Source: a virus
IMG/VR virus record: IMGVR_UViG_3300042478_000808
Coordinates: 1 to 26,847 of that record
Strand: one strand, 5' to 3'
DNA: 26,847 bases
In this document: piece after piece, positions 1,672-20,950 of the stretch
How positions within the stretch are numbered: the stretch's first letter is position 1
Layout of the letters: every line of letters begins with the position of its first letter
Made by a program: the position numbers and the translations under genes
The notes under the pieces: generated by a model
Databases searched by the model: none
What the model saw: only the letters and a program-made list of their open reading frames with translations
What the model was told of the DNA's origin: nothing

Positions 1672-2457
1672 ATGCAATCTTTTAGAAGGTATATTATTGA
1701 AGTGGCTCAACAAGGTTTTCAATACGAAAGAAATGCTGTTGAAGCGTTAAAACCATTTGACATCGTACCAAAAAGTTTTGTTCCTGCTGGCGCTGGATCT
1801 GATATACCAGATCTTATGATTAAAAGACCTGGGCCTGGCCAGACAGCAACCGGGTGTGAACTTAAGATCACTGCGGCATCTGCAGGTTCGTTAGTCATGA
1901 AATGGAACGATGGCAATTGGTCGATAGGTAGTGAGAATGAAACCAATGACGAAAAACTATTTGTCATAGAACTCGCTAAACAAGTTGGGATACTTGACAC
2001 AATCAAATCTTCTTGGAAGCAAGAACCATATAAGTTTACGAAGAATAGAAACGTTTTGTCTGAGATAGAAGGACTAAACAAAAGAGAAATATATTCAAAA
2101 GAGCTTTCTCGTTTTTCAGAAATTAAAGGTGTTATACCTGCAACAAAGATAGAAGAATACTACAATAAGAAAAAGACTTATTATGTAAATGTTGGTACTG
2201 ATGGGTTCTTTTTATTAGGAAATAACAATCCGCTTGGATTAAAGGGTGTTCCTTCATTTGGTAATGCCGCAAACGCTGGTTATAGGGCAAGAGTGCAGGC
2301 AAAAGGTGGCGGAACATATCAATTTACATTTGAAATGAGTTTTTCAATACCAAGAGCACGAAGATCTCCGTTTAACATTGCACCTACGATGGGAAAAACA
2401 GTTAACATAGATTTCGATGTGATGGAAAAAACATTAAAAGATCTTTTTGGAGTTTAA
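1672..2457 (+). CDS. Predicted capsid-targeted PD-(D/E)XK-type nuclease (261 aa)
   Basis: The N-terminus MQSFRRYIIE matches the T4 capsid-targeting sequence pattern (IPIII MKTYQEFIAE), with a predicted gp21 cut after Glu10. Next comes a nuclease-like core: helix FQYERNAVEAL (about 17-27), then GSDIPDLMI with Asp47, then CELKIT with Glu63-x-Lys65. This is the spacing of a PD-(D/E)XK active site. The rest (about 90-261) matches nothing I know. The gene is the first after the late promoter, with RBS AGAGG about 1660. It looks more A+T-rich than the neighbouring HAD gene, which may indicate separate acquisition. The nuclease call rests on a short motif and could be wrong. The N-terminal signal is clearer. 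Confidence 0.65.
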   Translation: MQSFRRYIIEVAQQGFQYERNAVEALKPFDIVPKSFVPAGAGSDIPDLMIKRPGPGQTATGCELKITAASAGSLVMKWNDGNWSIGSENETNDEKLFVIELAKQVGILDTIKSSWKQEPYKFTKNRNVLSEIEGLNKREIYSKELSRFSEIKGVIPATKIEEYYNKKKTYYVNVGTDGFFLLGNNNPLGLKGVPSFGNAANAGYRARVQAKGGGTYQFTFEMSFSIPRARRSPFNIAPTMGKTVNIDFDVMEKTLKDLFGV

Positions 2458-2459
2458 TG

Positions 2460-3065
2460 ATGCTTTCATTTAAATCTTTCATAACCGAACAGACTCGCGG
2501 TAAAGGTCTAACGATCTTTGATATCGATGAGACTCTCTTTCGCACTTCTGCTAAGATACGAGTGATGAAGGACGGCAAGTTAGTTCGTTCACTCGATAAT
2601 CAAGAATTTAATACTTATAAATTGAAAGATGGCGAGTCCTATAACTTCGGGGAGTTTGAGTCCGCAGAAGTCTTTCAGAAGACTTCAGTCCCCATCATGA
2701 AGATGATCGAAAAAGCAAAGGCGATCATTAAGAACGCCACGGCTGCAGGGTCTAGAGTCATTATCGTGACTGCTCGATCCGATTTCGACGATAAGAAAAA
2801 GTTCCTTGACACATTCCGTCGTTATGGTATAGATATTGATAACGTATATGTTGAGAGAGCTGGAAATCTAAAACTTGGATCATCTGCAAAGAACAAGAGG
2901 TTCGTCTTCCATAAGTATCTTCGTGGCGGTAAGTACGAGAGAGTTCGTTTCTTTGACGATGCCATGTCGAACATTACAATGTTTAAGGCTCTCGCAAAAC
3001 AGTATCCAGGTATTTCCTTCGAGGCATATCACGTAAAGCACGACGGATCAATAAGGAAAGTATGA
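2460..3065 (+). CDS. Predicted capsid-targeted HAD-superfamily phosphatase (201 aa)
   Basis: HAD phosphohydrolase. Motif I is FDIDETLF with nucleophile Asp21 and Asp23. Motif II is IIVTARSDF with Thr104, a Lys-rich stretch about 143-147 could supply motif III, and RFFDDAMSN with Asp166-Asp167 is motif IV. This arrangement occurs in polynucleotide 3'-phosphatases and related acid phosphatases. The first ten residues, MLSFKSFITE, match the capsid-targeting pattern with a predicted cut after Glu10. Two ATGs lie in tandem (2457 and 2460). I chose the second because GGAG (2449-2452) is then 7 nt away and Glu falls at position 10 as in the sister proteins. It directly precedes the ligase-like gene. 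Confidence 0.82.
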   Translation: MLSFKSFITEQTRGKGLTIFDIDETLFRTSAKIRVMKDGKLVRSLDNQEFNTYKLKDGESYNFGEFESAEVFQKTSVPIMKMIEKAKAIIKNATAAGSRVIIVTARSDFDDKKKFLDTFRRYGIDIDNVYVERAGNLKLGSSAKNKRFVFHKYLRGGKYERVRFFDDAMSNITMFKALAKQYPGISFEAYHVKHDGSIRKV

Positions 3066-4294
3066 TGATAACTTTTAGAGAATACCTCGCCGAGGAAAAG
3101 AATCTCCATATGGAGCACCTTGAAGATGCCATTCTAAACCTCGGTGTTGATGGAACTCGTTCGTCAATCAACTTCCTCCGCTCGCTTCGAGACATGCTTG
3201 CTGGAAGATCTAAAGCTCCTATCAACGTAACCGTTAAGTGGGATGGCGCACCTGCCGTATTCGCTGGAATAGACCCTTCTGACCGTAAGTTCTTCGTCGC
3301 TAAGAAGGGTATCTTCAACAAGAATCCAAAGGTCTATAAAACAGACGAAGACATTGATGCCGATACCTCAGGCGATTTGAATACAAAATTGAAACTTGCT
3401 CTTGCTGAGCTTCCAAAGCTTGGCATCAAGGGTGTGATACAAGGTGACTTTCTATATGCGAGAGAAGATATCAAAGAAGTTAACATTAATGATGAACCGC
3501 ATATTACTTTTCATCCTAATACGATTGTTTACGCGGTACCTGAAAACAGCAAGCTTGCTAAGGAAATCCTCAGATCTAAGATCGGAGTGGTATGGCACAC
3601 TCGATACAGAGGAGACTCTTTTGAAACAATGTCAGCGAGTTTTGGAGAAGAGATCGCAAGCGGCCTTAAGAAAGTAAATTCTGTCTGGTCCGTCGACGCC
3701 GTCTATAAAGACGTGTCCGGAACAGCTAACTTTACTTCAAACGAGACCGAAGCCGTCACTGAGATACTATCCAAGGCAGGAAAGCTCTTCAACTCGATTA
3801 AGAGGGAGACACTTAACGGCATCTCTGAGAACGAAGAGAGACTTATGAGAGTAAAGACCTTCGTAAACTCCAAGATCCGTCAGGGAGAAAGAGTTCGCAA
3901 CTCTGCGGTGTTCGTCAACGACCTAATCGTATATCTGAACCGATACTACGACGGCGAGATTGAAAAGAAAAAGACAGACGCTGGCAAGAAGGCTGTGATG
4001 GCTAAAAAAGACGAAGTAATGTCTTACTTTGACAAGACTCAGAGATCTCAGATCGTAGCGATGTTTGATCTATACAATCATATCATAGACGCAAAACTAT
4101 TAATCATACGAAAGCTCGATAGAGCAAAGAGAATTGGTACCTTCCTCAAGACAGCTGACGGGTATAAGGTAACCGAGCAGGAAGGTTTTGTCGCAATCGA
4201 CCACATGGGTAAGAACGCAGTTAAACTTGTAGACCGACTCGAATTTAGTAAAGCAAACTTCTCCGCGGAATACATAAAGGGATGGCAACGATAA
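3065..4294 (+). CDS. Predicted capsid-targeted ligase-type nucleotidyltransferase (409 aa)
   Basis: Covalent nucleotidyltransferase motifs of the ligase/capping superfamily can be read in order. Motif I is VKWDGAP (Lys58-x-Asp60-Gly61, the candidate AMP-Lys), motif III-like VIQGDFLY is about 124-131, motif IV is EGFVAID (373-379) and motif V-like KLVDR is about 387-391. A long helical insertion separates motifs III and IV. It resembles a T4-like phage family that I recall as DUF6267 (name not verified). Known members of the superfamily seal nicks or RNA breaks; the substrate here is unknown. The N-terminus MITFREYLAE matches the capsid-targeting sequence with a predicted cut after Glu10. ATGs at 3062 and 3065 are tandem; AGGA (3054-3057) is better spaced from the second. 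Confidence 0.8.
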   Translation: MITFREYLAEEKNLHMEHLEDAILNLGVDGTRSSINFLRSLRDMLAGRSKAPINVTVKWDGAPAVFAGIDPSDRKFFVAKKGIFNKNPKVYKTDEDIDADTSGDLNTKLKLALAELPKLGIKGVIQGDFLYAREDIKEVNINDEPHITFHPNTIVYAVPENSKLAKEILRSKIGVVWHTRYRGDSFETMSASFGEEIASGLKKVNSVWSVDAVYKDVSGTANFTSNETEAVTEILSKAGKLFNSIKRETLNGISENEERLMRVKTFVNSKIRQGERVRNSAVFVNDLIVYLNRYYDGEIEKKKTDAGKKAVMAKKDEVMSYFDKTQRSQIVAMFDLYNHIIDAKLLIIRKLDRAKRIGTFLKTADGYKVTEQEGFVAIDHMGKNAVKLVDRLEFSKANFSAEYIKGWQR

Positions 4295-7034: not shown

Positions 7035-7580
7035 ATGAAAGAATGGTTCGCAGGAAAAACTGTTGCGGTTGTTGGTAATGCGGCTTCGCTCTTACAACAA
7101 AAGTACGGTAAAGAAATAGATCGAGCAGAAGTAGTGGTTCGTATCAACCGTGGTGGATATCGCTTCACCGAGTTTCCATCTCAGATGGGATCGCGTCTTG
7201 ATATCTGGTGTATGCAGAACATTAACCAAAACAAAGCATACTTTAATAAACCTCATACAAGACACGTACGTAAGATGCAGATGGATACTGTAGACGTATC
7301 CCCATTGCATATAGAGATGGCAGATCTGGTGTTCTCTGATGAGGATAGAAAGCAGTTAGACGGTAACTTGCCAAAGAAATCTTCGACTGGTCTAAGAGTC
7401 TTATACTATATAAAGAAGCAGAACCCACAAAAAGTTTTTGCATATGGCTTCGATTGGAAAGCATCTTATTCCTGGCACGAGAGAAGAAAATGTATCGCTC
7501 ATGACTTTGGAACAGAACGAAATTACTGTTTGAATAACATATTTAACGATGATACATTTTTACTTAGAGGTTCATCGTGA
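7035..7580 (+). CDS. GT29 (sialyltransferase-fold) glycosyltransferase, paralogue 1 (181 aa)
   Basis: GT29-type signature in order: motif L-like VAVVGNAASLL (10-20) with YGKEID and VVVRINRG behind, motif S-like SSTGLRVL (116-123), YGFDWK (137-142), and His156-x4-Glu161 (HDFGTE), corresponding to the very small H-x4-E motif of sialyltransferases. At 181 aa it is a minimal catalytic domain with no signal or membrane anchor, so it should act in the host cytoplasm. Known GT29 enzymes use CMP-sialic acid; the donor here is not shown. It heads the ATGA-chained sugar operon. Two paralogues close the same operon (13486 and 13986). Confidence 0.82.
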   Translation: MKEWFAGKTVAVVGNAASLLQQKYGKEIDRAEVVVRINRGGYRFTEFPSQMGSRLDIWCMQNINQNKAYFNKPHTRHVRKMQMDTVDVSPLHIEMADLVFSDEDRKQLDGNLPKKSSTGLRVLYYIKKQNPQKVFAYGFDWKASYSWHERRKCIAHDFGTERNYCLNNIFNDDTFLLRGSS

Positions 7581-8479
7581 TTACATCTTCTATATTTTAC
7601 AAAACTCTAAAGTCTGATAGAAAAGATGAAAGATTTGAGGCAATTCAAAAAACATTTCCAAATTGCTCTGTCGTGAAAAACTCGGTTTGGAATAAATGCA
7701 ATCTTGCTATCATACAGGGATGGCCAAAGCCAGGATCCGATACACCTCATAATATGTTTAGAAGATACGTCATAGAAAAACAGAAAAACCATTGCGGCCA
7801 CATTTTAACTGTTGATGGGAACATCTTTAATTATCTAAGTAAAAACATTTATTTTAGATACAGCATGAACGGCATATTTGCAAACACTGGTTATTATTTT
7901 GATAAAGAGATAGATCCAAACAGATGGACTAATATAAGTAAGGTAACCGAATGCAAACTTAAACCTTGGAGAAAAACCGGAGATCATATTCTCATACTTA
8001 TGCAAAAGAGTTCCGGTTGGACTATGTGTGGTTTAGACGGATTAAAGTGGTGCACTTCAACGATAAAAAAGATAAGGGAATATTCCGATAGAGATATTGT
8101 CATTCGATTACACCCAACCGATAATCATTTAGTAAATGGATACATTAGTAACTTAGAAAAAAGTAGAGTAACCATATCGAGAAATAAAAGCATTTTAGAA
8201 GATTTAAAAAACGCATGGTGTTCCATTACATATAACAGTTCTCCTGGAGCCGTTAGCGCGATTGAAGGCGTTCCGGTGTTTATCATGGACCCGGATTGGA
8301 AAAAGAGCCCGGTGGCAGATGTTGGAAATTATGACATGTCAATGTTAGAAAGTCCATATATAATAGATAGAGAAACTTGGATCCAAAAGATAGCAATGTC
8401 TCATTACAGTATTCAAGATATAAAAGATGGCCTCCTGTGGAAAGAAGTATCAAAATATTTAGACGTAGGTAAGATATGA
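7577..8479 (+). CDS. Capsule-type glycosyltransferase-like protein (300 aa)
   Basis: No exact family recognised. The C-terminal half has a GT-B type nucleotide-sugar site of the capsule synthesis kind. VIRLHPTDN (about 174-182) is followed by a helix with LEDLKNAWCSITYNSSPG, then AVSAIEGVPVFIMDP (about 226-240). The same order (basic strand, D-x-L-x-x-A, S-x-x, A-x-E-x-G-[VI]-P-V) occurs in the protein at 9264, so the two are distant paralogues. Linked by ATGA to both neighbours. Codon use looks more A+T-rich than in the ColD or GMD genes. Acceptor unknown. Confidence 0.6.
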   Translation: MITSSIFYKTLKSDRKDERFEAIQKTFPNCSVVKNSVWNKCNLAIIQGWPKPGSDTPHNMFRRYVIEKQKNHCGHILTVDGNIFNYLSKNIYFRYSMNGIFANTGYYFDKEIDPNRWTNISKVTECKLKPWRKTGDHILILMQKSSGWTMCGLDGLKWCTSTIKKIREYSDRDIVIRLHPTDNHLVNGYISNLEKSRVTISRNKSILEDLKNAWCSITYNSSPGAVSAIEGVPVFIMDPDWKKSPVADVGNYDMSMLESPYIIDRETWIQKIAMSHYSIQDIKDGLLWKEVSKYLDVGKI

Positions 8480-9267
8480 AAAGAATTAATGCAGTAACTT
8501 GTTATAATACAAGCGGGTTCAGAGAGACTGGATCGCTGCTCATCAATGGGTTTATTCGATACTGGCCAAAAGAAGTATCATTAACTGTGTATGTTGACGA
8601 CCCTATTCCAAAGAACGAACTCATTCGAGACGAGAGAGTTACATATAAGATATTAAATCAGAAAGATCTAATAGCTTTTAAAGAAAGACACGCGAACAAC
8701 TTGGAAGCAAATGGTCTCGGAAGTAAATCTGAAGCAGGTCAGAAAAATTACAGATACGACGCAGTAAGATTTAGTCATAAAGTGTTTGCTTTGTTCCAAT
8801 TCCTTGAAGAGAACGATACAGATGTTCTTATATGGTTAGATGGCGATAGCAGAACTCATTCATCTGTCTCTGTAAATGATATTAACAGTTGGTGCCCAAA
8901 CGAAAAGTTCGCTGGATATCTTGCCCGCCCTTGGATGTACACTGAAACTGGTTTTCATATCTTAAATACGAAACATCCAATATCCAAAGAGTTTCTTAAT
9001 GCTTGGAAGCAATACTATATTGATGATAGTATCTTTCGCCTTGATATGTGGACGGATTGTCATACTTATGATGCAGCAAAGACAAAGTTTAACGATGATC
9101 ACTGGTATAACCTTAGCCCACCAATTAAGAATAATCATCCTTTCATTAACGGGCCTCTCGGTATGTTTATGGACCATATGAAGGGTCCTCGTAAAAAGAA
9201 AGGGACTAGTAATAAGAGGGATCTAGTCGTAAAGAGAAACACAGAATACTGGAACAAAGTAAAATGA
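8476..9267 (+). CDS. GT-A type glycosyltransferase-like protein (263 aa)
   Basis: The N-terminal strand INAVTCYNTSGFRETG is followed by a typical GT-A nucleotide-binding half and a DxD-type motif in VLIWLDGDSRTH (Asp at about 119 and 121, preceded by hydrophobic residues), the metal and sugar-nucleotide site. Further residues of interest are GFHILNTKHP (about 159-168) and the Trp/His-rich DDHWYNL. A Lys/Arg-rich tail (MKGPRKKKGTSNKRD) could contact membrane or nucleic acid. Overlaps both neighbours by ATGA. No family number can be assigned from motifs alone. Confidence 0.6.
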   Translation: MKRINAVTCYNTSGFRETGSLLINGFIRYWPKEVSLTVYVDDPIPKNELIRDERVTYKILNQKDLIAFKERHANNLEANGLGSKSEAGQKNYRYDAVRFSHKVFALFQFLEENDTDVLIWLDGDSRTHSSVSVNDINSWCPNEKFAGYLARPWMYTETGFHILNTKHPISKEFLNAWKQYYIDDSIFRLDMWTDCHTYDAAKTKFNDDHWYNLSPPIKNNHPFINGPLGMFMDHMKGPRKKKGTSNKRDLVVKRNTEYWNKVK

Positions 9268-10145
9268 TGTGCGCATTTCTTTCAGGAAAAAAAGACCAAG
9301 ACTCGTATGTTAAATCTTTTGGTTACACAAACGAAGCAAAAATTGTTTATACACGTCATCATGTATACAAACACCAAACTTCACGGCATGCACCACCGCA
9401 TCTAAGAATTAAAAAGCTATTACCTAGTTATGAATCTGTGGTATTTGCTGGTCTGCTAAGAGGAAACGCTCATATTTTGGATATGGCCGTGAATGATAAT
9501 ATGAATTTCTATTACATAGATCACGCATACTTTAAACCAGGTTATAGATATCCAAACTGGATGAGAGTTGTAAAAAACGGATTTGTTCAGAATACCATAT
9601 TACCTGATGTTAACAGTGATCGTTTAAAACTATTTGATATTAACTTTTTAGACTATAATTTTAACAAGAAACAAAATATTGTCGTGTTTCCACCGAGCGA
9701 TACCGTTGCTCGAGTATTCAATCATACAAACTGGGAAGCTGAAACTATAGAAAAAATAAAACAATACACGGATAGGCCGATCGTAGTTAGAAGAAAGACC
9801 GGGCCTGTCATGGATAATCTAATGATTAATGTTAAGTACGAAGAAAAACACGATTACGAAGAATCTCTTGACGATGTTCTAAACAATGCTTACTGCGTAG
9901 TTGCTTTCAATAGTGCAGTAGCTCTTACGGCATTGGAAAGAGGAATACCTGTGATATGTGAAAGATACTGTGCCGCGTTTCCGTTAACCCATTCATTTGA
10001 AGAGATAGAGCATTTAAAAGAAAAAGAAAGGTTTCATCTATTCGCGAGTCTTGCGTGGGGTCAGTTTACGATGGAAGAAATAAAAGACAAGAAAACATTC
10101 AAATTCATAAACGGTGCAACACAATGGAAGGGACCTATAAAATGA
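9264..10145 (+). CDS. Capsule-type glycosyltransferase-like protein, paralogue of 7577 (293 aa)
   Basis: Shares its C-terminal layout with the protein at 7577: IVVRRKTGP (about 173-181), SLDDVLNNAYCVVAFNSAVA, then ALERGIPVICE (about 224-234). This suggests a GT-B fold that binds a nucleotide-sugar. The N-terminal half (residues 1-100) includes NFYYIDHAYFKPGYR, an aromatic-rich stretch. No DxD is obvious. Phage proteins of this type are usually annotated only as hypothetical. Linked by ATGA on both sides, the downstream partner being the ColD-type enzyme. Confidence 0.55.
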   Translation: MMCAFLSGKKDQDSYVKSFGYTNEAKIVYTRHHVYKHQTSRHAPPHLRIKKLLPSYESVVFAGLLRGNAHILDMAVNDNMNFYYIDHAYFKPGYRYPNWMRVVKNGFVQNTILPDVNSDRLKLFDINFLDYNFNKKQNIVVFPPSDTVARVFNHTNWEAETIEKIKQYTDRPIVVRRKTGPVMDNLMINVKYEEKHDYEESLDDVLNNAYCVVAFNSAVALTALERGIPVICERYCAAFPLTHSFEEIEHLKEKERFHLFASLAWGQFTMEEIKDKKTFKFINGATQWKGPIK

Positions 10146-12276: not shown

Positions 12277-12815
12277 AGGTAGTAGTAACTGGTCATACTA
12301 GCGGTCTTGGCAAGACGCTATACGATAGACTATCAGAGAAACATCACACAATAGGTCTCAGTAGGTCAAACGGACACAATCTTTCAAATGGTGTCGAGTC
12401 ATTTTTAATAGAAAATTTTGATGTCTATATTAATAACGCGTATCATGCTTATGCGCAAGTTGATCTATTATATAAGTTATTTGAACAAAATAAATATAGA
12501 AACTGCACAATCATTAACATTGGAAGTGTAAGCGCTGACGGTAATAAAGACACCGTTAATGAATATGCTATTCATAAATCTGCATTGGAAAAAGCTTGTT
12601 CTCAGCTTCAGTTAATTGACACCGGCTGCAAAGTCATTCATTTAAAACTTGGAAGAATGAACACTCCAATGACGGATTCCAAAAAAGAATACCCACGCAT
12701 AGATACGGATTACATCGCAAATGTAGTTGAGTGGATGCTACACCAACCCGAAAAAATGTTCTTTAAGAACTTAACGATAGATATAATGCATAGTAGAAGA
12801 AAGGAAGCGTCATGA
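12273..12815 (+). CDS. Classical short-chain dehydrogenase/reductase (180 aa)
   Basis: Rossmann cofactor motif TGHTSGLGKTL (T-G-x3-G-x-G, residues 7-17), NNAYHA in the NNAG position, INIGSVSADG with the catalytic Ser, and YAIHKSALEKA with Tyr-x3-Lys: a complete SDR active site. At 180 aa it is shorter than the usual 250. It follows GMD with an ATGA overlap and might reduce the 4-keto sugar left by the ColD-type enzyme (the role of ColC in colitose synthesis). However, ColC is a larger extended SDR, so this assignment is inference. Substrate unknown. Confidence 0.8.
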   Translation: MKVVVTGHTSGLGKTLYDRLSEKHHTIGLSRSNGHNLSNGVESFLIENFDVYINNAYHAYAQVDLLYKLFEQNKYRNCTIINIGSVSADGNKDTVNEYAIHKSALEKACSQLQLIDTGCKVIHLKLGRMNTPMTDSKKEYPRIDTDYIANVVEWMLHQPEKMFFKNLTIDIMHSRRKEAS

Positions 12816-13489
12816 TACCAATTTTTATTGGTTTTGATAAGAGAGAATCAGCAGCTTATCACGTGTGTTCAAACTCAATTATGAGACTGTCCACATCGCC
12901 AATTAGTTTAAATCCTCTATCACTCAATCTCTTGAGCGGATACGAAGAAAAGCATACTGATGGCAGCAATCACTTCATATACAGTCGCTTTCTTATTCCG
13001 CACCTAATGAACTATAAGGGTTGGGCTTTGTTCCTTGACGGAGATATGATTCTTCGTGACGACATTACAGAGTTGTGGAATATGCGTGACGAGACGAAAG
13101 CCGTCATGGTCGTAAAACACGACTATAAGACTCGCATGGAAGAAAAGTATCTTGGTGCAAAGAATGAAAATTATCCTCGCAAAAATTGGTCAAGTGTGAT
13201 ACTATGGAACTGTGGACACGAGGCGAATCGAGTTGTGACTCCCGAGTTTGTGCAGAATGCGACAGGTGCAGTCGTTCATCGTTTCACTTGGCTAGACGAT
13301 AGTCTAATTGGAGAACTGCCTATCGAATGGAACTGGCTACCTGACGAATTTGGAGAGAACAAGAATGCAAAGCTTCTTCACTATACATTAGGAACTCCGT
13401 GCTTCCATGACTTCGCTACAACACCAATGGCTGATGAATGGCATAGAGAAAGAATCTACATGAACTACAGTCTTCAGAGAGGATTATGA
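12812..13489 (+). CDS. GT8-like glycosyltransferase (225 aa)
   Basis: N-terminal strand IPIFIGFDKRESAAYHV, typical of GT8-like and related GT-A transferases, then FIYSRFLIPHL and WALFLDGDMILRDDITELW (about 70-88), where Asp-Gly-Asp is the metal-binding DxD. WSSVILWNCGH and HRFTWLDDSLIGELP fit the acceptor-side loops. LHYTLGTPCF (about 191-200) gives a His as third metal ligand, as in GT8 (H-x-x-G-x-x-K/P). No membrane segment. Linked by ATGA to the SDR gene and the second GT29 paralogue. Confidence 0.72.
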   Translation: MIPIFIGFDKRESAAYHVCSNSIMRLSTSPISLNPLSLNLLSGYEEKHTDGSNHFIYSRFLIPHLMNYKGWALFLDGDMILRDDITELWNMRDETKAVMVVKHDYKTRMEEKYLGAKNENYPRKNWSSVILWNCGHEANRVVTPEFVQNATGAVVHRFTWLDDSLIGELPIEWNWLPDEFGENKNAKLLHYTLGTPCFHDFATTPMADEWHRERIYMNYSLQRGL

Positions 13490-13989
13490 GAGAAGTATTT
13501 GAAGGTAAGACTGTGTCTATAGTCGGAAACGCAAGAAGTCTTTTTGATAAAACATATGGTAAAGAAATAGACTCTGCACAGGTCGTTTGCAGGATCAAAC
13601 GTGGCTTCTTTATGTTAAAACCAGAAGATATTAAGTCTCATGGTAAGAGAACAGATGTCTGGTTTTTAAACTGGTTTAAGACTATGAAGCCAAATAGAGT
13701 TACGAATAAAACTTGTGATCATATAGTTGAGATACTGCATCATCCTGAGATAGACGTCGAGTGGTTAAGAAACGATCTCGGTCATCATCGCCCATCAACA
13801 GGATTGAGGATACTTCATTTGATCTCTCTTTACAATCCAGATCAAGTAAACGTATATGGTTACGACTGGAAAGCGACTTCTTCTTTTCACGATAGAAAAC
13901 TTCACGACGACCGACATGATTTCGCTCTTGAAAAGCAATACTGCATAAATAAATTTTTCAGCAACAAAAAGTTTGTGTTAAGACAATGA
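13486..13989 (+). CDS. GT29 glycosyltransferase, paralogue 2 (167 aa)
   Basis: Same architecture as the proteins at 7035 and 13986. VSIVGNARSLF (10-20), YGKEID, VVCRIKRG, PSTGLRIL (103-110), YGYDWK (124-129) and His144-x4-Glu149 (HDFALE) correspond to the GT29 motifs. It lacks any N-terminal anchor. It is shorter by 14 residues than paralogue 1, mainly between the two sugar-nucleotide motifs, which may change acceptor choice. Chained by ATGA to paralogue 3. Confidence 0.82.
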   Translation: MREVFEGKTVSIVGNARSLFDKTYGKEIDSAQVVCRIKRGFFMLKPEDIKSHGKRTDVWFLNWFKTMKPNRVTNKTCDHIVEILHHPEIDVEWLRNDLGHHRPSTGLRILHLISLYNPDQVNVYGYDWKATSSFHDRKLHDDRHDFALEKQYCINKFFSNKKFVLRQ

Positions 13990-14546
13990 AAGAATGGTTT
14001 AAAAGTAAAACGGTTGCCGTGATAGGCAACTCGATGGCACTCTTTGGTAAGAGTTACGGCGAAGAGATTGATGCACACGATGTTGTTGTGCGCATCAATA
14101 AAGCAGCGATGTTATACACGCGTCAAGAGGTAAGTAAGAGCCACGGAACGAAAACCAACGTCTGGGTCTTTTGGAATGCTGCTGAGTATAAGTCTTTCTT
14201 TAATAAGATACCTAAACATATTAAAAAGATGCATGCTGGCCATCAGGGAAGAACACCAAGTAACATACATGCAGTCGACTTTGTTTATCCGGAAAATCTG
14301 TATAAAGAGTTAAAGAAGCATTCTGGTAAATACAGTAACCCAACAACGGGTCTAATTTTTCTAGACTACTTATCAACTTGTAACCCAAAGCACGTAGATG
14401 TGTATGGTTTTGATTGGAAAGAGACTGCAACGTTTACAGATCCTGAAATGAAGAGAGAAAAGACGTGCCCTCACGACTATCCAACAGAGAAGGAATACTG
14501 CGCAAAGAACTTCTTCTCAAAGGATAATTTTACTTTAAGAGACTGA
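13986..14546 (+). CDS. GT29 glycosyltransferase, paralogue 3 (186 aa)
   Basis: Third copy: VAVIGNSMALF (10-20), YGEEID, VVVRINKA, NPTTGLIFL (118-126), YGFDWK (140-145) and His163-x4-Glu168 (HDYPTE). The N-terminus MKEWFKSKTV is closest to paralogue 1 (MKEWFAGKTV), although the C-terminal insert before the His-Glu motif differs. It is the last gene of the sugar operon and ends just before a late promoter. Confidence 0.82.
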   Translation: MKEWFKSKTVAVIGNSMALFGKSYGEEIDAHDVVVRINKAAMLYTRQEVSKSHGTKTNVWVFWNAAEYKSFFNKIPKHIKKMHAGHQGRTPSNIHAVDFVYPENLYKELKKHSGKYSNPTTGLIFLDYLSTCNPKHVDVYGFDWKETATFTDPEMKREKTCPHDYPTEKEYCAKNFFSKDNFTLRD

Positions 14547-14549: not shown

Positions 14550-14557
14550 TATAAATA
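14550..14557 (+). promoter_or_regulatory. T4-type late promoter TATAAATA
   Basis: Exact late octamer in the 38-bp gap before ATG 14585. It should drive the block to 18738. No terminator is visible ahead of it, so sugar-operon transcripts may read through. Confidence 0.85.
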
Positions 14558-14584: not shown

Positions 14585-17053
14585 ATGGACGACAATAAAA
14601 AGATTGATCCAAAGAAAAAGAAGCAAAAAAGCTTTAAAGAATTTGACCCAACAAAATACATAGAAACAGAGCCAACTATGAACGAAGCTGCAAGAGGTGT
14701 GGCTGTCGTTAGTTTTGGTCGTTTTAATCCAATTACAACCGGTCATGAAAAGTTAGTCAACACCGTCATGTCTGAAGCGATTAAGCGTAAGGGCGAACCT
14801 GCGATCTATATGTCTCATACACAAGATCCTAAAAAGAACCCGCTATCGTACAATCAGAAGATATCTCTCGGTCAATCTGCATTTGGCAAGATCGTTAAAA
14901 AGTCTACATCAAAAACACTCATAGAAGTAGCCAAAGAGCTCTCAGGAAAATATTCGGAACTCGTAATCGTTGTCGGTTCGGATCGAGTCAATGAATTTGA
15001 GACTCTTATGAATAAGTATAACGGAAAAGAATACAATTTTGAGAATATATCAGTAGTATCTGCCGGAGAAAGAGATCCGGATTCTGACGATGTTTCTGGT
15101 ATGTCAGCATCAAAGATGAGATCTCTTGCAGCTAAGAAGGACCTTGAAGCTTTTAAGAACGGTCTTCCAAAAAAGTTAAAATCGTCAGCTAAGAAAGTGT
15201 ATGACATGGTTAGAAACGGAATGAACATGACAGAAAGCACTGAAGAAGTAGTTTTAGAAGCAGCACCTCTTACTCTTGCTCAAAGACGTAAACGTGGTCT
15301 TATAATGAAACGTTATAAGACAAAGATAAAGGCTGCTCGTGAGAGAGCTAAGAGAAAGATGGCGCCAAAAGAAAACCTTCTTAAGAGAGCAAGAAAGCGA
15401 GCTTTAGAAGTTATTCGTGATCGCCTTATGAAGAACAAGAAGTATTCGGAAATGTCTCCTGCCGAAAAGATCAATCTAGACGCAAGACTTGCAAAAGTAC
15501 CTAAGGCAGTCATTGGTCGTATTGCAGCAAAGCTTCTTCCTAAAGTTCGTGCCGCAGAAAAAGAAAGACTAAAGAATGTCCTTGCGCCTAAACAAGAATC
15601 TTTAGATACTGCGTTCGAAACTTTCTTAGAATCAAGAACCGTTAAACCGCAGGACAAAGACGTGGCACATATGCCGGGTTCGCAGCCTAAGGGATACTAT
15701 GCTGGCGTTAAATCAAGTGTAAAGGATGATCGTGCTAGACACTTCGCAAAGTATTCTAAAAAGAGCGACGATGAGCAATCATCATATAAGCCAGCGCCTG
15801 GTGATAAAGGTGCTAAGACGAAGCCATCGGTTCACACAACAAAATTTAAACAGATGTTTGGCGAGTCTCTTAACGAAGCTTCACAGGCAGATACTAAGTT
15901 TCGTAAGAGACCGCATATGGCACTAGAAAAGAATGGTTCTGTTAAGTTTGATAAAAGATTTAAGATCTTTAAGAAACAGATTAACGAGAGCCACGAAGAT
16001 TTTTCGTTTGAAATACTCGGTCTCATGGAAGATGTTGATAACTTTGTCATGTCTGAAGAGTACGATGTTCTTATGGAAAATAATCCAGAAGAAGCTCTCA
16101 AGAATAAAGCCGAAAAGAGCGGAATATCATACGGAATACTTAAGAAGGTGTTCGATCGTGGTGTAGCTGCTTGGAGAACTGGACACCGTCCAGGTACGAC
16201 TCCAACTCAGTGGGGTCTCGCAAGAGTTAACTCGTTTGCCACAAAAGGCAAGGGTACTTGGGGTAAGGCAGACTCAGATCTTGCTGCTAAAGTAAGAAGC
16301 GAAGCAGTATCGCCAACAGCAGTTCATCCTTTTGTCCACATAAAGGACCCTGATAAAGCAGTTAAGATACCAAAGGCTCTAAAGCACAAGCTAGGTGTTG
16401 GTCTAACTCCAAAGCATATGATGATGCATGGAAGTAAAGCAATCGACTTAGATGTTGATGGCGACGTGGATAAGTTTGATAAGACTACACCAGACGAAAT
16501 CACTGGTACAGAGAAGAAGAACCTTACTCGTCAAATGCAAAAGAAGTATTCTGGAGAAGTCAAAACAGGTAAGATCGGAAACGCTTTTGAATCTGTTGAC
16601 GAAGGCGTAGAACAAGCAAAGATGAAGATGAAGATCTCTCAAGAAAAGATGGCTGATGCAAGAAGGCACGATCGTATGCTTGATGCTGCAAAGCAAAGAG
16701 ATAAATCTTCAAGCAAGAATCTATCTCGAGATATTCAAGAAGGTGATCCGAACCCTCATAATCGTGAGGATGGGACCGATAAGCTAGTCAAGACTTATAA
16801 GAAAGATACGCCCGGAGAGAAATCCCTTAAAGAGTTTATGCTCGCAGGATCGTTTGGCACATTCAAGAGAGGCGATAGAGTTCGTTTTACGAAACACTCG
16901 ATGGATATGTTCGACGGTCAACTACGTAAGGGTACTGTAGTAGGCGGAGACATTTCTTGGCTAAGAGTAAGAGACGACGACGGTACACTATATAAAGTTC
17001 GCCATTACAACGCAGCTGCCGTCAATAACGACGATCCAGCCAATAAGTTTTAA
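14585..17053 (+). CDS. Mosaic head-type protein with N-terminal nucleotidylyltransferase domain (822 aa)
   Basis: Multi-domain protein. Residues about 37-205 are a cytidylyltransferase-like fold: GRFNPITTGHEKL (45-57; the HxGH motif reads TTGH), LVIVVGSDRVNEF, and SGMSASKMRSL in place of the ISGT-x-x-R signature. NMN and related adenylyltransferases have this layout. Residues 225-340 are very Lys/Arg-rich. Residues about 503-565 (with AAWRTGHRPGTTPTQWGLAR) resemble a phage family I recall as DUF5824. An EF-hand-like loop starts at Asp621 (D-x-D-x-D-G-x-V-D-x-x-D), and an SH3-like segment lies about 760-815. Several [IL]-x-E sites (LNE, INE) suit gp21 cleavage. KSFKEF at 15-20 resembles the capsid-targeting sequence but is not at the N-terminus. 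RBS AGAGGA 14575-14580. Confidence 0.75.
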   Translation: MDDNKKIDPKKKKQKSFKEFDPTKYIETEPTMNEAARGVAVVSFGRFNPITTGHEKLVNTVMSEAIKRKGEPAIYMSHTQDPKKNPLSYNQKISLGQSAFGKIVKKSTSKTLIEVAKELSGKYSELVIVVGSDRVNEFETLMNKYNGKEYNFENISVVSAGERDPDSDDVSGMSASKMRSLAAKKDLEAFKNGLPKKLKSSAKKVYDMVRNGMNMTESTEEVVLEAAPLTLAQRRKRGLIMKRYKTKIKAARERAKRKMAPKENLLKRARKRALEVIRDRLMKNKKYSEMSPAEKINLDARLAKVPKAVIGRIAAKLLPKVRAAEKERLKNVLAPKQESLDTAFETFLESRTVKPQDKDVAHMPGSQPKGYYAGVKSSVKDDRARHFAKYSKKSDDEQSSYKPAPGDKGAKTKPSVHTTKFKQMFGESLNEASQADTKFRKRPHMALEKNGSVKFDKRFKIFKKQINESHEDFSFEILGLMEDVDNFVMSEEYDVLMENNPEEALKNKAEKSGISYGILKKVFDRGVAAWRTGHRPGTTPTQWGLARVNSFATKGKGTWGKADSDLAAKVRSEAVSPTAVHPFVHIKDPDKAVKIPKALKHKLGVGLTPKHMMMHGSKAIDLDVDGDVDKFDKTTPDEITGTEKKNLTRQMQKKYSGEVKTGKIGNAFESVDEGVEQAKMKMKISQEKMADARRHDRMLDAAKQRDKSSSKNLSRDIQEGDPNPHNREDGTDKLVKTYKKDTPGEKSLKEFMLAGSFGTFKRGDRVRFTKHSMDMFDGQLRKGTVVGGDISWLRVRDDDGTLYKVRHYNAAAVNNDDPANKF

Positions 17054-17062
17054 GAGGATAAA

Positions 17063-17860
17063 ATGAAATCTTTTAAGAAGTTTGTAAAAGAAGCATGCTG
17101 GACTGGATACAAGCAGGTTGGCATCAAAGAAAAGAATGGACGTAAAGTTCCTAATTGTGTTCCAGAAGAAGCTGATGTTGACGAAGCATATGTTCATACT
17201 GATTTTACTGATAAAACAACCCCAATGGGGAATAGAAAGGCATATGCAGCTGCAAAAGCAAATGATGAAAAGAAACCAGTTTCTTTAAAAAAGGCTCCTT
17301 GGGATAAGAAGAACGAAGAAGTTCAACTAGATGAAGTATCCGATAAGAAGCTAGATGTGTATCGTCAGAAGGCATTTGCGGATCAACCATCTGGTGACGA
17401 TGGTTCTGACAAGTATCGTAAGCGCAAGTTTGGTCGTGACCTAGCATTCGCTAAACAAACTGGTAGAGCTAAAGTTCTTGCTACAAAGGAATCTGTCGAA
17501 GAGCTTGATGAGCTTTCACCGAACACGCTTTCTTCTTATGCAAGTAAAGCTAACATAGACGCGTCAAAAGCTAGAAGTCATATGAGAGTTTCCGCTGGTG
17601 GAAAAGATTTTGCTACTCATAAGAAAAGATACGATAAGAGAACCGCCGGTGCTGTGAGGGCAGGAGAAAAGTATCGCAAGTTAGTAGCCAGAGAAGAAAT
17701 CAAACTTGATGAAGCTTCAGATCTTCGCATCACCAAGGTCTACAATAAGTTTCCTAAGAAAGCGACCTATGCAGTTCACTCACCAGATCGCAAGTACTAC
17801 AAAGAGTTTGACTCAATGGAAAAAGCAAAAGCTCATCACGCAGAAAAGACAGGTAAGTAA
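17063..17860 (+). CDS. Predicted capsid-targeted internal head protein (265 aa)
   Basis: Starts MKSFKKFVKE followed by ACWTGYKQVG, so the capsid-targeting pattern is met with a predicted cut after Glu10. CWTGYKQVGIKEKNGRKVPN (11-30) is a short conserved phage motif with two Cys nearby. Further LDE-type sites (QLDEVS, ELDELS, KLDEAS) divide the chain into pieces, with the ELSPNTLSSYASKA repeat related to the modules of the 711-aa protein. Very basic and Lys-rich overall, which fits DNA contact inside the head. RBS AAGAGGA 17052-17058. The exact role is unknown. Confidence 0.75.
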   Translation: MKSFKKFVKEACWTGYKQVGIKEKNGRKVPNCVPEEADVDEAYVHTDFTDKTTPMGNRKAYAAAKANDEKKPVSLKKAPWDKKNEEVQLDEVSDKKLDVYRQKAFADQPSGDDGSDKYRKRKFGRDLAFAKQTGRAKVLATKESVEELDELSPNTLSSYASKANIDASKARSHMRVSAGGKDFATHKKRYDKRTAGAVRAGEKYRKLVAREEIKLDEASDLRITKVYNKFPKKATYAVHSPDRKYYKEFDSMEKAKAHHAEKTGK

Positions 17861-17861
17861 A

Positions 17862-18140
17862 ATGAAATCTTTTAAGGAATTCGTAGAACATCCAAACTGC
17901 GGAACGCCAGACTGCTGCGGACAATGCAGCACCGTCTCGGAAGCCGAGTCTTGGGAAGCAGGATACAAGCGTCGTGTCGTAAAGACTACGAGTGCTGAGC
18001 ATAAAGAAAAGGGAATGAACTGGCGCATCAAGGGTAAAGAGCGCCCAGAGATCTCAATCAAGCTCTATAAAGAAAAGCCATCACAGGCAGAGTTCAATAA
18101 GCAGATGCGTCGAGTCGCCGGCCACGAGTTTGGTGGATAA
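17862..18140 (+). CDS. Cys-rich capsid-targeting-like protein (92 aa)
   Basis: Begins MKSFKEFVEH, almost identical to the start of the preceding gene (MKSFKKFVKE), but Glu10 is replaced by His. The next possible gp21 site is VSE (25-27, followed by Ala). A Cys cluster CGTPDCCGQC (13-22; Cys 13, 18, 19, 22) could bind zinc or form disulfides. The remainder is basic (KERPEISIKLYKEKP). A longer frame extends upstream to 17706 but would lie inside the previous gene, and only the ATG at 17862 gives the conserved N-terminus. Ends in a TAATG overlap with the next gene. Confidence 0.7.
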   Translation: MKSFKEFVEHPNCGTPDCCGQCSTVSEAESWEAGYKRRVVKTTSAEHKEKGMNWRIKGKERPEISIKLYKEKPSQAEFNKQMRRVAGHEFGG

Positions 18141-18433
18141 TGATTCGTTTTAGTCAATACATCTCAGAAGCATATTTTGTTCAATATGTCCGTGATAAAG
18201 ATATTGACGTATTAAAGTTGCGTGATACCAATCAAAGAGGCTGGGTTGAGGTTCGCGGTAAAAAGAACTATGAAGTTACATATGATAAGAACGATCCTAT
18301 GCACAAAGCTATCGACGGTTTAGGCAAGGCAGCAAGTATATCAGATCTGATGAATGGTGATGTAGTAAGTATCAATCCTCATCATCCTCATGGTAAAAAA
18401 GCAATCGAAAACATCCAAAGGTTAATGAAATGA
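18140..18433 (+). CDS. Predicted capsid-targeted small protein (97 aa)
   Basis: N-terminus MIRFSQYISE then AYF, matching the capsid-targeting pattern with predicted cleavage after Glu10. The rest has a beta-rich middle (VLKLRDTNQRGWVEVRGKK), then GDVVSINPHHPHGKKAIENI (about 73-92), with a His cluster. No family recognised. Starts at a TAATG overlap and ends at an ATGA overlap. Confidence 0.72.
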   Translation: MIRFSQYISEAYFVQYVRDKDIDVLKLRDTNQRGWVEVRGKKNYEVTYDKNDPMHKAIDGLGKAASISDLMNGDVVSINPHHPHGKKAIENIQRLMK

Positions 18434-18738
18434 AGACGTTTAAGCAGTTTCTCGAAGAAAAGGATCCTCGTATCGAGAGAGCAGGAGTTGCCGGTTTCAA
18501 TAAGCCAAAGGCGACTCCTAGTCATCCAGAAAAGAGTCACATAGTCGTTGCAAAGTCCGGCGATCAAGTAAAGACGATCCGCTTTGGACAGCAAGGAGCC
18601 GAGACTGCGGGTGATCCTAAGGAAGGCGAATCCGAAAGAATGAAGATGAAGAGAAAGTCTTTCAAAGCTCGTCACGGTAAGAATATCGCTAAGGGAAAAA
18701 TGTCGGCTGCTTATTGGGCCGATAAAGTTAAGTGGTAA
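18430..18738 (+). CDS. Predicted capsid-targeted basic protein (102 aa)
   Basis: Begins MKTFKQFLEE, very close to T4 IPIII MKTYQEFIAE. A KTIRFGQQGAETAG segment (about 48-61) is followed by a strongly basic C-terminus, RKSFKARHGKNIAKGKMSAA and then YWADKVKW. This tail belongs to a motif I have seen in several phage and giant-virus proteins, but I cannot name the family safely. Likely DNA-binding in the capsid (inference). Last gene before a late promoter. Confidence 0.72.
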   Translation: MKTFKQFLEEKDPRIERAGVAGFNKPKATPSHPEKSHIVVAKSGDQVKTIRFGQQGAETAGDPKEGESERMKMKRKSFKARHGKNIAKGKMSAAYWADKVKW

Positions 18739-18745
18739 CTACTTT

Positions 18746-18753
18746 TATAAATA
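18746..18753 (+). promoter_or_regulatory. T4-type late promoter TATAAATA
   Basis: Exact late octamer, 61 bp before ATG 18815, flanked by inverted arms CTACTT (18739-18744) and AAGTAG (18758-18763). It should drive the 711-aa repeat protein and the genes behind it. Confidence 0.85.
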
Positions 18754-18814
18754 AAGTAAGTAGATCTAGTATCAGCAATTCATGTTAGGCAATCAATTTC
18801 TAAGGACAGAATAA

Positions 18815-20950
18815 ATGAAGAGATTCAAATCTTATATTAACGAATCAGTTGAGCTCGATGAGTCAATCACGAAAATGTCTGATGCTCGTCTCAAGTTTCA
18901 CGTTTTGAAAAATGTACCACATGGTAGCTATACCAAAAAAGAGCTATCGGCAGAACACGATCGTCGTAGAAAGACCCAAGGGCCTGCATATATGGCCGTA
19001 AAACCTTCACTCAACGAAGAAAATATTGATGAAGCAGTAAATGCTAAAAAGATTGCTGCAGATCATGACGCTGGTCATTCGATTGACGTTATTGTCCAAA
19101 AGCATCTCAATAAAAAGGGTGATAACAAGGATGAGATTCTAAAAGCTATTCAAGCTCACCGCTGGAATAAGCGTATGAAGAAAGAAGAAGCTGAACTTGA
19201 CGAAGTTTCACAGGAGACGCTCCGTAATTATCACGCGAAGGCTGCTCTCGATTTAAGAAAGAAAAGAGAAAAACTTGATAAGGGTACTCTGACCTCTAAA
19301 GATTATAAGCAGGGACAAAACCGCGTAACTGGTTTGAATAGAGCTGCCAATAAAATGGAAGAAGTTGAACTTGATGAAGCTCGTAAGAGCGACTCATATC
19401 AATTTACTCACAAACCAGGCGATGCTGAATCTGAAAAAAGATTAGCCGACCTTAAAAAGTCAGTAAAAGGTACTGGTAAGCGTGTTGTACTACAAGGTCG
19501 TTTGGGTAAAGACAATCCTAACGCACATAAGTATTCTAAGGATGCACCTAGTGCGAAATACAAAGACGGCAAGCGCGTAAATAGTGACGTTTCAGGAAAA
19601 TCAGGTGGCCATTCTCATCAGCGCATTCAAAAAGCAGATGCAGCCCATCACGACGTATATGTCTACGACCGTAATGAGTCTGTTGAACTTGATGAAATTT
19701 CAAAAGCCACTTTACGTAAAGTGGGAGGCCAAATGCTACGTAAAGGCCTTTCAGACGACCCAAAAGCAGATAAGCACATGAAGTATGCAAATCTAGCGTC
19801 TGCAAAACTTTATCCTAACCAATATAAAAATTCTCCTCTAAAAGCGAAAGTTAACGCTACAGAAGAAGTCGAGTCCCTCGACGAACTTTCAAAGAAGACT
19901 CTTGGTTCATACGTGAAAAAAGCTGCTGGTGATGCTGTTACTAAAGCTTATAGAGCAGGTGACGTTCGAGATAAAGATAGTGGTAAGAATTACATGAAAG
20001 CCCTAGGAAGACAGATTGGTATTTCTACAGCAACTAGTAAACTTGCGAAAGAAGAAGTTGAACTTGATGAAGTTTCGACCGCAACTTTGCAAAGATATAA
20101 ATCTGCGGCAAGTAAAGCCATGGATCGTGCATCAGACTCAGCAATTGATAAAATGCTAGGCAGTAAGGATTCTCAGTCTGTAGACATTTCAAAAGAAAAA
20201 AAGACTATGGACAAGCGTAGCAAGGGAGTATCCCTCGCTTCAAATAAACTAGCTAAAGAAGAATTCGAACAGATCGACGAACTTTCAAAGAAGACCCTTG
20301 GTTCATATGTTAAGAAAGCCTCACGCAATCTAGCTGGAAGAGAATATAAGCGTGGAGCCGAAAAAGATACAAGCACGTCAAATCTCCAAAAATCCTATAA
20401 AAGAGATATGGGCATCGCTAAAGCAGTTGATAAACTAACTAAAGAAGAAGTTGAAAATCTTGATGAACTCAAGAAATCAACCCTCGGTTCATATGTGAAG
20501 AAGGCTGCTGGTAGTATGGCTGGTAAAACTGCTGTTGCTGCTGCACAAGCCTCATCCTCAATGGGAAAATCTTCGCCAGATATAAAGCGTGGTATAGTTA
20601 ACCGTATGAAGGGTATTACTAGAGCTACTGATAAACTCGCAAAAGAAGAAGCAGATCTCGAAGAAAAACTGGTTGGCGGTCAAAAGAAGTTGGATCACAA
20701 CAAGAACGGTAAAATCGACTCGCATGATTTTCATCTTATGAGAAAAAAGAAGATGAAGGAAGAAGTTGAAGGTCTTGACGAGATCTCTCGCGACCTAGCT
20801 CGTCGTTACATCCGTAAAATTGCTGATAAGACGAACACCGGAGAACTATCCGTCAAGCAAGTTGAGAAGCGTAGACCTGGTCTAAATCTTGCTGGTAAGA
20901 AAGCATACCCTTCGATCGCTGGTGAACCAAAGGTTCGTGCTACAGATTAA
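18815..20950 (+). CDS. Repeat-rich capsid-targeted protein with serial LDE sites (711 aa)
   Basis: N-terminus MKRFKSYINE (capsid-targeting pattern), then SVELDES. [LI]DE tripeptides recur at residues 14, 71, 128, 186, 292, 355, 417, 487, 549 and 654, and LEE at 615. Most intervals are 57-70 residues. T4 gp21 cuts after (I/L)-x-E, so the chain may be cut into about a dozen basic peptides. The modules share E-[LIV]-S-x-x-T-L-x-x-Y-x-x-K-A at the start and K-L-A-K-E-E-V-E before the next site. A canonical EF-hand-like loop, DHNKNGKIDSHD (627-638), sits near the end. Lys-rich throughout. RBS AAGGA 18802-18806. Confidence 0.8.
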   Translation: MKRFKSYINESVELDESITKMSDARLKFHVLKNVPHGSYTKKELSAEHDRRRKTQGPAYMAVKPSLNEENIDEAVNAKKIAADHDAGHSIDVIVQKHLNKKGDNKDEILKAIQAHRWNKRMKKEEAELDEVSQETLRNYHAKAALDLRKKREKLDKGTLTSKDYKQGQNRVTGLNRAANKMEEVELDEARKSDSYQFTHKPGDAESEKRLADLKKSVKGTGKRVVLQGRLGKDNPNAHKYSKDAPSAKYKDGKRVNSDVSGKSGGHSHQRIQKADAAHHDVYVYDRNESVELDEISKATLRKVGGQMLRKGLSDDPKADKHMKYANLASAKLYPNQYKNSPLKAKVNATEEVESLDELSKKTLGSYVKKAAGDAVTKAYRAGDVRDKDSGKNYMKALGRQIGISTATSKLAKEEVELDEVSTATLQRYKSAASKAMDRASDSAIDKMLGSKDSQSVDISKEKKTMDKRSKGVSLASNKLAKEEFEQIDELSKKTLGSYVKKASRNLAGREYKRGAEKDTSTSNLQKSYKRDMGIAKAVDKLTKEEVENLDELKKSTLGSYVKKAAGSMAGKTAVAAAQASSSMGKSSPDIKRGIVNRMKGITRATDKLAKEEADLEEKLVGGQKKLDHNKNGKIDSHDFHLMRKKKMKEEVEGLDEISRDLARRYIRKIADKTNTGELSVKQVEKRRPGLNLAGKKAYPSIAGEPKVRATD
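19205..20665 (+). repeat. In-frame repeat modules of the 711-aa gene
   Basis: Modules bounded by LDE codons: 19205-19378, 19697-19885, 19886-20071, 20072-20281, 20282-20467 and 20468-20665. DNA identity is high locally, for example CTTTCAAAGAAGACTCTTGG at 19886 versus 20282 with one change, while the second half of each module has diverged. This fits duplication followed by selection on protein. Confidence 0.8.

Follow-up and report, generated by a model that had tools for sequence, protein, structure and literature searches.

Tagged genes and late promoter boxes of the window

The virus record IMGVR_UViG_3300042478_000808, 26,847 bases long and referred to in its entirety as the window, contains eight genes whose products start with a common decapeptide (the tag), M-x-[STR]-F-x-x-[FY]-[ILV]-x-E or a close variant of it. 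The window was found again, with one mismatch, in IMGVR_UViG_3300042868_003731 (G006), a 217,966-base record of a T4-like phage that encodes a Peptidase_S77/gp21-type prohead protease (E 1.7e-36). The tagged genes are listed below, together with a gene carrying a longer leader and the late promoter boxes in front of them; genes are named by their start positions, and ↓ marks a known or predicted cut.

1642..1649, + strand: late promoter box TATAAATA, 30 bases before the start codon of 1672, heading the first tagged operon
1672..2457, + strand: tagged protein 1 (tag at 1672-1701), predicted PD-(D/E)XK nuclease of 261 residues (motif, model)
2460..3065, + strand: tagged protein 2, predicted HAD-type phosphatase (DUF2608 over the Pfam cut-off; phrog_415)
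3065..4294, + strand: tagged protein 3, DUF6267 protein with a predicted RNA/DNA-ligase-like fold (Pfam E 8.1e-112, motifs, model)
14550..14557, + strand: late promoter box TATAAATA, 35 bases before 14585, at the head of the second operon
14585..17053, + strand: cytidyltransferase-like protein with a long IPI-like leader, FKEFDPTKYIETEPTMNE↓A (Pfam, PHROG, N-terminus comparison)
17063..17860, + strand: tagged protein 4, 265 residues, with three [LI]DE sites 59 and 67 residues apart
17862..18140, + strand: tagged protein 5, 92 residues, start MKSFKEFVEH (His10 variant)
18140..18433, + strand: tagged protein 6, 97 residues, with the tag in 6 of 6 classified relatives
18430..18738, + strand: tagged protein 7, phrog_7595 family, the tag missing in most relatives fetched
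18746..18753, + strand: late promoter box TATAAATA, 69 bases before 18815
18815..20950, + strand: tagged protein 8, a 711-residue repeat protein with eleven [LI][DE]E sites, candidate gp21-cut polyprotein

A six-frame scan of the window revealed seven matches to the motif, each at a gene start: MQSFRRYIIE (1672), MLSFKSFITE (2460), MITFREYLAE (3065), MKSFKKFVKE (17063), MIRFSQYISE (18140), MKTFKQFLEE (18430) and MKRFKSYINE (18815). With the His10 variant of 17862 as the eighth tag and no further motif match on either strand of the window, the scan confirmed the N-terminus which the initial annotation had reported for the same eight genes. Based on composition, 0.00035 such starts would be expected among the 34 genes of the window when Glu or His is allowed at position 10. 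Aromatic residues occupy positions 4 and 7 in all eight proteins, and a gp21-type site, [I/L/V]-x-Glu at positions 8-10, is present in seven of them. The 17862 protein could be cut after Glu9 (F-V-E↓H), with Phe at P3 as in T4 Alt (F-D-E↓D), or just as possibly not be cut at all. The starts of 2460 and 3065 are ATGATG doublets, the second ATG of which fits the motif. In AlphaFold models, the predicted local distance difference test score (pLDDT) was below 50 at residues 1-14 of 3065 and residues 1-8 of 1672.

Five T4-type late promoter boxes (TATAAATA) lie in the window, at 1642, 6295, 14550, 18746 and 24598, all on the plus strand, and none was found on its minus strand. The boxes point to late expression of the tagged genes. 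Of the earlier claim that the cluster spans two late operons, the late character is supported by these boxes, but three of them, not two, precede the genes concerned.

Distribution and modularity of the tag

A pattern search across the whole genome and its relatives had been suggested with the initial annotation. The core pattern, in which position 3 may be any residue, matched the 217,966-base record eight times, seven of them being those of the window, against one match of the reversed pattern; the eighth lies at position 61114 on the minus strand, in an open reading frame (ORF) of 154 residues (MQSFKNFLLE↓Q). A looser scan of this record added 17862 and a 377-residue gene at 176454 (MKTLRQIISE↓V), the other loose matches looking like chance. 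Over nine long records, 40 core-pattern matches, not all of which are gene starts, one in G009 containing an in-frame stop, stood against three of the reversed pattern. Peptidase_S77/gp21 was present in 9 of 9 long records, G006 included, and in 0 of 14 controls.

In 3,803,004 bases of related loci, a figure that includes overlapping contigs and the window's own record, 233 distinct ORFs start with M..F..[FY][ILVM].[EH]. Single-linkage BLAST clustering (E 1e-4) of the parts after residue 10 gave 34 clusters, 14 of them with a single member, and six occur in the window. Single linkage lumps families: cluster 2 comprises 17063, 17862 and 18815, so that the eight window proteins form six clusters and are not all unrelated, and cluster 3 holds several nuclease-like proteins. 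At least two of the 34 are probably chance matches kept in the count, namely cluster 28 (L186, minus strand, His10, 61 residues) and cluster 11, in which the Met lies 239 residues inside a longer open frame. When the core F..[FY][ILV].E was taken in distinct ORF contexts, Met was found at position -3 in 193 and all other residues together in 92; per 100,000 residues at -3, the core-pattern rate was 594 for Met vs 0-21 for other residues. A chance origin of the tag is ruled out by the expectation of 0.00035, the reversed-pattern controls and this preference for Met.

Conservation was assessed in 32 DUF6267 proteins, consisting of 31 picked from 80 loci and the window protein, none selected by the tag pattern. 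Glu10 is present in 32/32, position 4 is Phe in 28/32 and Leu in 4/32, position 7 is only Phe or Tyr and position 8 is Leu, Ile or Met; positions 2, 3, 5, 6 and 9 are variable (2.0-2.75 bits). The residue logo over the tagged clusters was drawn from sequences selected by the tag pattern.

As a control, the loose pattern was applied to the whole T4 genome, where it recovered the gene starts of ipII, ipIII, gp24, alt and gp61.1 and two places without an annotated start. The tags of ipII and ipIII are identical. The internal proteins (IPs), Alt and gp24 are described as gp21 substrates in T4 (PMC5694885). The 54-residue gp61.1 (NC_000866, 19130-18966, minus strand) starts with a perfect tag, MKTFKEFIKE↓D, and by this start may be a further T4 internal protein.

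Among named phages, the N-termini of 37 genes near pattern matches were read. Tag-like starts were seen in the DUF6267 protein of DLP_6 (MMKFTQFLAE), in Melnitz-3 (MQGFKTFLSE), in Cr30 gp060 (MKTFKQFFNE, with Phe at 8) and in four proteins of C48C1 (MLDFKNFITE, MLSFKQFVSE, MITFKKYLEE, MKKFKQYIDE). The tagged gp060 of Caulobacter phage Cr30 (L387:14170-14490), a phage in culture on the laboratory strain C. crescentus CB15, reads like an ADP-ribosyltransferase (ART). Large tagged sets are not universal among T4-like phages: Syn9 and S-SM1 have one core-pattern match each, the cytidyltransferase T4-GC190 (Syn9 gp184, SSM1_190), and HTVC008M has none in the 139,999 of 147,284 bases examined. These three genomes were scanned in pieces, and a gene split by a piece border could be missed.

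The comparison of tagged and untagged relatives revealed that the tag behaves as an add-on. Among 46 relatives of gene 1672 that are distinct in their first 80 body residues, 33 start with Met directly followed by AAQQGFQYE, and in 13 the tag precedes a body of the same type, which begins 0-4 residues past Glu10 in 12 of the 13; the remaining one, L182, has a longer insert with the tag further upstream. At the L011 join, MLTFKKYITE↓AAQQGFQYE, the predicted cut after Glu10 would leave the untagged protein without its Met. L191, L195, L198 and L200 have one Met separating the tag from the body (e.g. MDSFKGYISE-M-AAQQGFQYE), and the resemblance of this Met to an old start codon suggests that the tag was gained. 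This natural addition or loss of the tag in the gene-1672 family is the best evidence for a targeting tag. A quick tree of the family, with several weak branches, requires one change of state only, and repeated gain of the tag in this family is unsupported.

In the phrog_7595 family (18430), 5 relatives are tagged and 69 untagged, with two changes of state; one of the 69 (L021, MKKFKTFTEE) is perhaps a tag variant. DUF6267 relatives fall outside the standard tag in 19 of 115 cases, and the 14 inspected have a tag one residue shorter or longer or Val at position 7 (e.g. MNFKDFITE↓QKNTH). In the cytidyltransferase family, SSM1_190 and Syn9 gp184 carry the tag and L185, L196 and L112 carry variants of it. 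The IPI-like leader occurs in 12 of 39 distinct N-termini of this family, that of 14585 included, and an [ILM]xE↓A site is retained in many of the others.

Predicted enzymes and the repeat protein

The initial annotation had stated that the tagged set includes enzymes, which agrees with the prediction of a nuclease, a HAD phosphatase and a ligase-like DUF6267 protein. In gene 1672, P46-D47 and E63-L64-K65 are invariant in 32 homologues and match the catalytic D...(D/E)xK signature. Its AlphaFold model (pLDDT 87.7) was aligned best by VIA-align with the HhaI endonuclease (Z 8.8, 179 residues aligned, root-mean-square deviation 5.4), followed in further rows by Hjc (6.4), SPARDA and HinP1I (5.1), all of which we take to be PD-(D/E)XK proteins. 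No match was obtained for the 1672 model with Foldseek at E<=0.001, nor for the protein in a PDB sequence search or by tblastn in the phages collection.

For 2460, the nearest named PHROG is polynucleotide kinase (phrog_415, E 1.5e-10), and the HAD DxDxT residues D21, D23 and T25 are invariant in 19 sequences. Its profile gave four weak matches in the PDB, none a phosphatase or kinase by name and none a polynucleotide kinase.

In 3065, K58-x-D60-G61 and E373-G374 are invariant in 32 proteins; these we take to be what are named ligase motifs I and IV. VIA-align of the model listed RNA ligases in all of the first 21 rows (Z 8.9-6.9, 162-199 of 409 residues aligned), Hsp70 in row 22 and then mostly DNA or RNA ligases. 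As a Z near 8 can, by the tool's own warning, mean a common arrangement, it is the invariant motifs that tip 3065 toward a ligase-like protein. Foldseek with this model (E<=0.001) and a PDB sequence search gave no match.

The cytidyltransferase-like 14585, whose cyanophage relatives include T4-GC190, is by its leader a probable ninth cargo protein; a PDB sequence search with it gave no match. PADLOC returned 0 matches for the 10 proteins scanned.

Cluster representatives were scanned against PHROGs at E<=0.001 (30 of 34, with L186 and L209 omitted, and two window proteins separately), and 20 tagged representatives were scanned with Pfam. Twelve of the 30 matched a PHROG, mostly families of unknown function; the others are ParB-like nuclease, phosphohydrolase, polynucleotide kinase or RNA ligase, and one 'endolysin' (head and packaging), the last matched by an ART-like tagged protein. 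Over the Pfam cut-off were HD_4 (3.6e-16), Zeta_toxin (2e-12) and AAA_33 (9.1e-12), and below it ART-PolyVal (1.1e-5), RNA_ligase (5.7e-5) and ParB_N (0.0024). According to Pfam, the tagged proteins of relatives also include a P-loop kinase and an RNA_ligase-like protein. A frequent occurrence of the decapeptide in plainly non-structural genes had been named in the initial annotation as an observation that would speak against capsid targeting; no polymerase, helicase, reductase or tail family was found among the tagged representatives scanned with PHROGs and Pfam.

The HD_4 match belongs to a tagged protein at L199:1997-2560, which presumably resembles RelA/SpoT-type hydrolases; a packaged signal-nucleotide hydrolase would be unusual, if true. 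The tagged proteins at L267:6606-7172 and L182:7991-8527 are ADP-ribosyltransferase-like (ART-PolyVal 1.1e-5, below the cut-off; PARP 0.16) and parallel T4 Alt.

The tRNA-repair enzymes of T4 form a phosphatase/kinase/ligase kit. By analogy, the cargo might be a similar kit of phosphatase, kinase and ligase placed in the virion, a functional guess that we regard as rather doubtful.

The repeat protein 18815 contains 13 [IL]xE sites vs 6.0 expected (p 0.005) and seven L[DE]E[ILVA] vs 0.17 expected. Eight of the ten gaps between its eleven [LI][DE]E sites measure 57-70 residues. When it was cut in silico at these sites, twelve pieces resulted, nine of them of 55-70 residues and all except the leader net positive. 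In L356, a relative of 18815 that starts with MKTLRQIISE and has four LDE-type sites is flanked by a gp20-like and a gp21-like gene; the relative found in L337 and L340 (MKSFHKIVSE) follows a gp20-like gene and the locus ends there, so that only L356 has both flanks. The gp20-like genes of these three loci were recognised by reading, without a search. In G006, the 377-residue protein with the loose tag (176454; L378) lies just before the gp21 gene, the place occupied in T4 by the core genes 67 and 68, and has its start in common with an LDE-repeat protein of a relative. No LDE-type repeats were matched in the T4, Syn9, S-SM1 and HTVC008M pieces. The arrangement of sites fits a core polyprotein cut by gp21; the LDE sites may also mark no more than the edges of a repeated domain. 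Cr30 gp064 (L387:10822-12870) is a further LDE-repeat protein, which starts directly at a cut-like site, MRSKILAE↓ISKKTL.

Probable capsid targeting and its alternatives

Mutagenesis of T4 IPIII is described as assigning targeting to residues 4 and 7 and processing to residues 8 and 10, with Asp10 blocking processing but not targeting (PMC9026906); the capsid-targeting sequence of the T4 internal proteins is credited to Mullaney and Black 1996, as cited in PMC9026906. Since the fixed positions of the tag, 4, 7, 8 and 10, are these IPIII positions, the pattern matches the mapped T4 signal, and with the gp21 gene present in the record the T4-like capsid targeting proposed earlier is supported. 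We conclude, with a probability of about 0.8, that the decapeptide is a T4 IPIII-type capsid-targeting sequence, a portable tag for gp21 cutting and packaging of cargo from different families.

According to this mechanism, aromatic residues 4 and 7 would bind the cargo to the prohead core, and the gp21-type protease would cut after Glu10 (P3 Ile, Leu or Val, P1 Glu), freeing the mature protein inside the head. The mature cargo would travel in the head together with the DNA, probably to be ejected into the cell. The tag would act as a portable module before late-expressed genes of different families, the cargo comprising the predicted PD-(D/E)XK nuclease, the HAD phosphatase, the ligase-fold DUF6267 protein, the cytidyltransferase-like protein with the IPI-like leader and small proteins, and 18815 would be cut by gp21 into about a dozen pieces. 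The tag, its specificity and modularity, the protease gene and the late promoter boxes are observed directly, and packaging and cutting in this phage are strongly indicated. By analogy with T4, the cargo would be injected with the DNA and may deal with nucleic-acid ends or host defence upon entry. T4-GC190 has been detected by mass spectrometry in purified S-SM1 virions (Sullivan and colleagues, PMC3037559); being the only core-pattern match in S-SM1, it provides an independent check, with n=1.

Several observations weigh against this interpretation. The text available of PMC3037559 does not report the N-terminus of GC190, which is tagged in S-SM1, and no proteomics was found for the uncultured phage of the window. 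The related loci were fetched with tagged queries, which biases the share of tagged genes upward. The DUF6267 protein of S-SM1 (GC71) is untagged, and the examined part of HTVC008M lacks a core-pattern tag; these families are therefore not packaged universally. With its single change of state, the gene-1672 tree speaks for one gain or loss and not for repeated swapping. The nuclease is untagged in two gp21-bearing records (L239 in G008, L220 in G009) and accordingly does not require packaging. Of the 61 relatives classified in the 2460 family, 10 have either no tag or a degenerate one that lacks the Glu; 12 had first been scored as untagged, two of which proved tagged with a non-ATG start.

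A tag that targets the prohead core for head assembly, on proteins that act in the scaffold or core and are degraded after use, with no role once infection has begun, is unlikely. It would account for the 18815 relative between gp20-like and gp21-like genes in L356, the place of T4 core genes 67 and 68, for those after the gp20-like gene in L337 and L340 and for the 377-residue MKTLRQIISE protein just before gp21 in G006, and the LDE sites would be in keeping with degradation. Enzyme families with intact catalytic signatures would, however, be superfluous in a disposable scaffold, and the cargo varies from phage to phage.

The segment is predicted to be helical and begins at the start codon, as would suit a start that enhances translation, a helix by which the N-terminus docks to a late complex, or membrane association; such functions are nevertheless very improbable, given that positions 4, 7, 8 and 10 are conserved while neighbouring positions vary, and that the pattern equals the mapped IPIII positions and recovers known T4 gp21 substrates. 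Least probable of all is an N-terminus shared through descent from one duplicated internal-protein gene. The identical ipII and ipIII tags in T4, the clustering of the tagged genes and the BLAST links of 17063, 17862 and 18815 via mosaic relatives would agree with it, but the proteins fall into 34 single-linkage clusters after residue 10, six in the window, within a family the tagged and untagged forms meet at the cut or close to it, and the nuclease and ligase-like models already differ. A single ancestral internal-protein gene was rejected on the basis of the clustering and the tagged/untagged pairs.

As the T4 tag is already known, a capsid-targeting tag is a mechanism of a known kind, and finding internal proteins by their leader is described as established for T-even phages (PMC12373910). 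New here are how large the tagged set is and that it includes enzymes, together with the add-on joins and the repeat protein. As in T4 IPI, IPII and IPIII, there is a short N-terminal propeptide with aromatic residues at 4 and 7, Ile, Leu or Val at 8 and a gp21-type cut site at Glu10, different mature domains stand behind one tag, and the long IPI-type variant is matched by 14585. T4 has few and small internal proteins, whereas here eight tagged genes in 26.8 kb include large predicted enzymes and a multi-site repeat protein. In T-even phages, Ip1-3 are described to block GmrSD restriction (PMC12373910; for IPIII also PMC9391042). T4 Alt is likewise a packaged, gp21-processed enzyme with a short propeptide ending at Glu10 (MELITELFDE↓D), but it lacks F4 and [FY]7, and tagged ART-like proteins occur in relatives (L267, L182; Cr30 gp060 by reading) and not in the window.

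The T4 core proteins gp22, gp67 and gp68 are described as cut into fragments by gp21 (PMC5694885), which compares with 18815 through its relative beside gp20/gp21-like genes in L356; in contrast to them, 18815 is encoded away from the head gene cluster and would give regular pieces, of net positive charge except for the leader. Cyanophage T4-GC190 shares the start MKKFSAFL[NS]E, with Lys at position 3 outside [STR], and was found in S-SM1 virions, but it is the sole core-pattern gene in Syn9 and S-SM1. The ejection proteins of SPN3US are also taken into the head and have N-terminal propeptides (PMC5694885), most of those named being longer than 100 residues, and an F4/F7 pattern is not mentioned in the text available of that source. 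In title- and abstract-level listings, no literature was found that links the T4 tag to marine, cyanophage- or pelagiphage-type T4-like phages or that names DUF6267. The Dar proteins of phage P1 are, we assume, comparable as proteins taken into the head.

It is conceivable, at somewhat less than even odds, that a T4-like lineage related to cyanophages carries an interchangeable arsenal of tag-addressed virion enzymes together with a polyprotein that gp21 cuts at about eleven regular sites, giving basic peptides delivered with the genome. Besides a nuclease, such an arsenal would contain a ligase, a nucleotidyltransferase and a phosphatase and kinase for end healing, to which relatives would add HD hydrolases and ADP-ribosyltransferases; if true, it would be a ready-made kit for cutting or mending nucleic acids at entry. 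The tag offers a sequence rule for proteins that may enter cells with T4-like phages, a range far wider than the small anti-restriction proteins known from T-even phages, and the tagged list names candidate early effectors in uncultured phages (nucleases, end-repair enzymes, ADP-ribosyltransferases, HD hydrolases). Named phages with tags (C48C1, Cr30, Melnitz, Syn9, S-SM1) open the finding to mass spectrometry where they are cultured, and the tag may prove useful as a packaging handle beyond T4.

Between the two tagged clusters, at 7035-14546, the window holds a block of surface-sugar-type genes, with aminotransferase-, epimerase/dehydratase- and transferase-like ORFs as read from their translations. 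The ORFs at 7035, 13486 and 13986 are related and have KTV[AS][VI][VI]GN in common near their starts. At 23608-23814, between endolysin and spanin, a 68-residue protein ends in a long run of Asp and Glu, an acidic tail that recalls T4 gp67.

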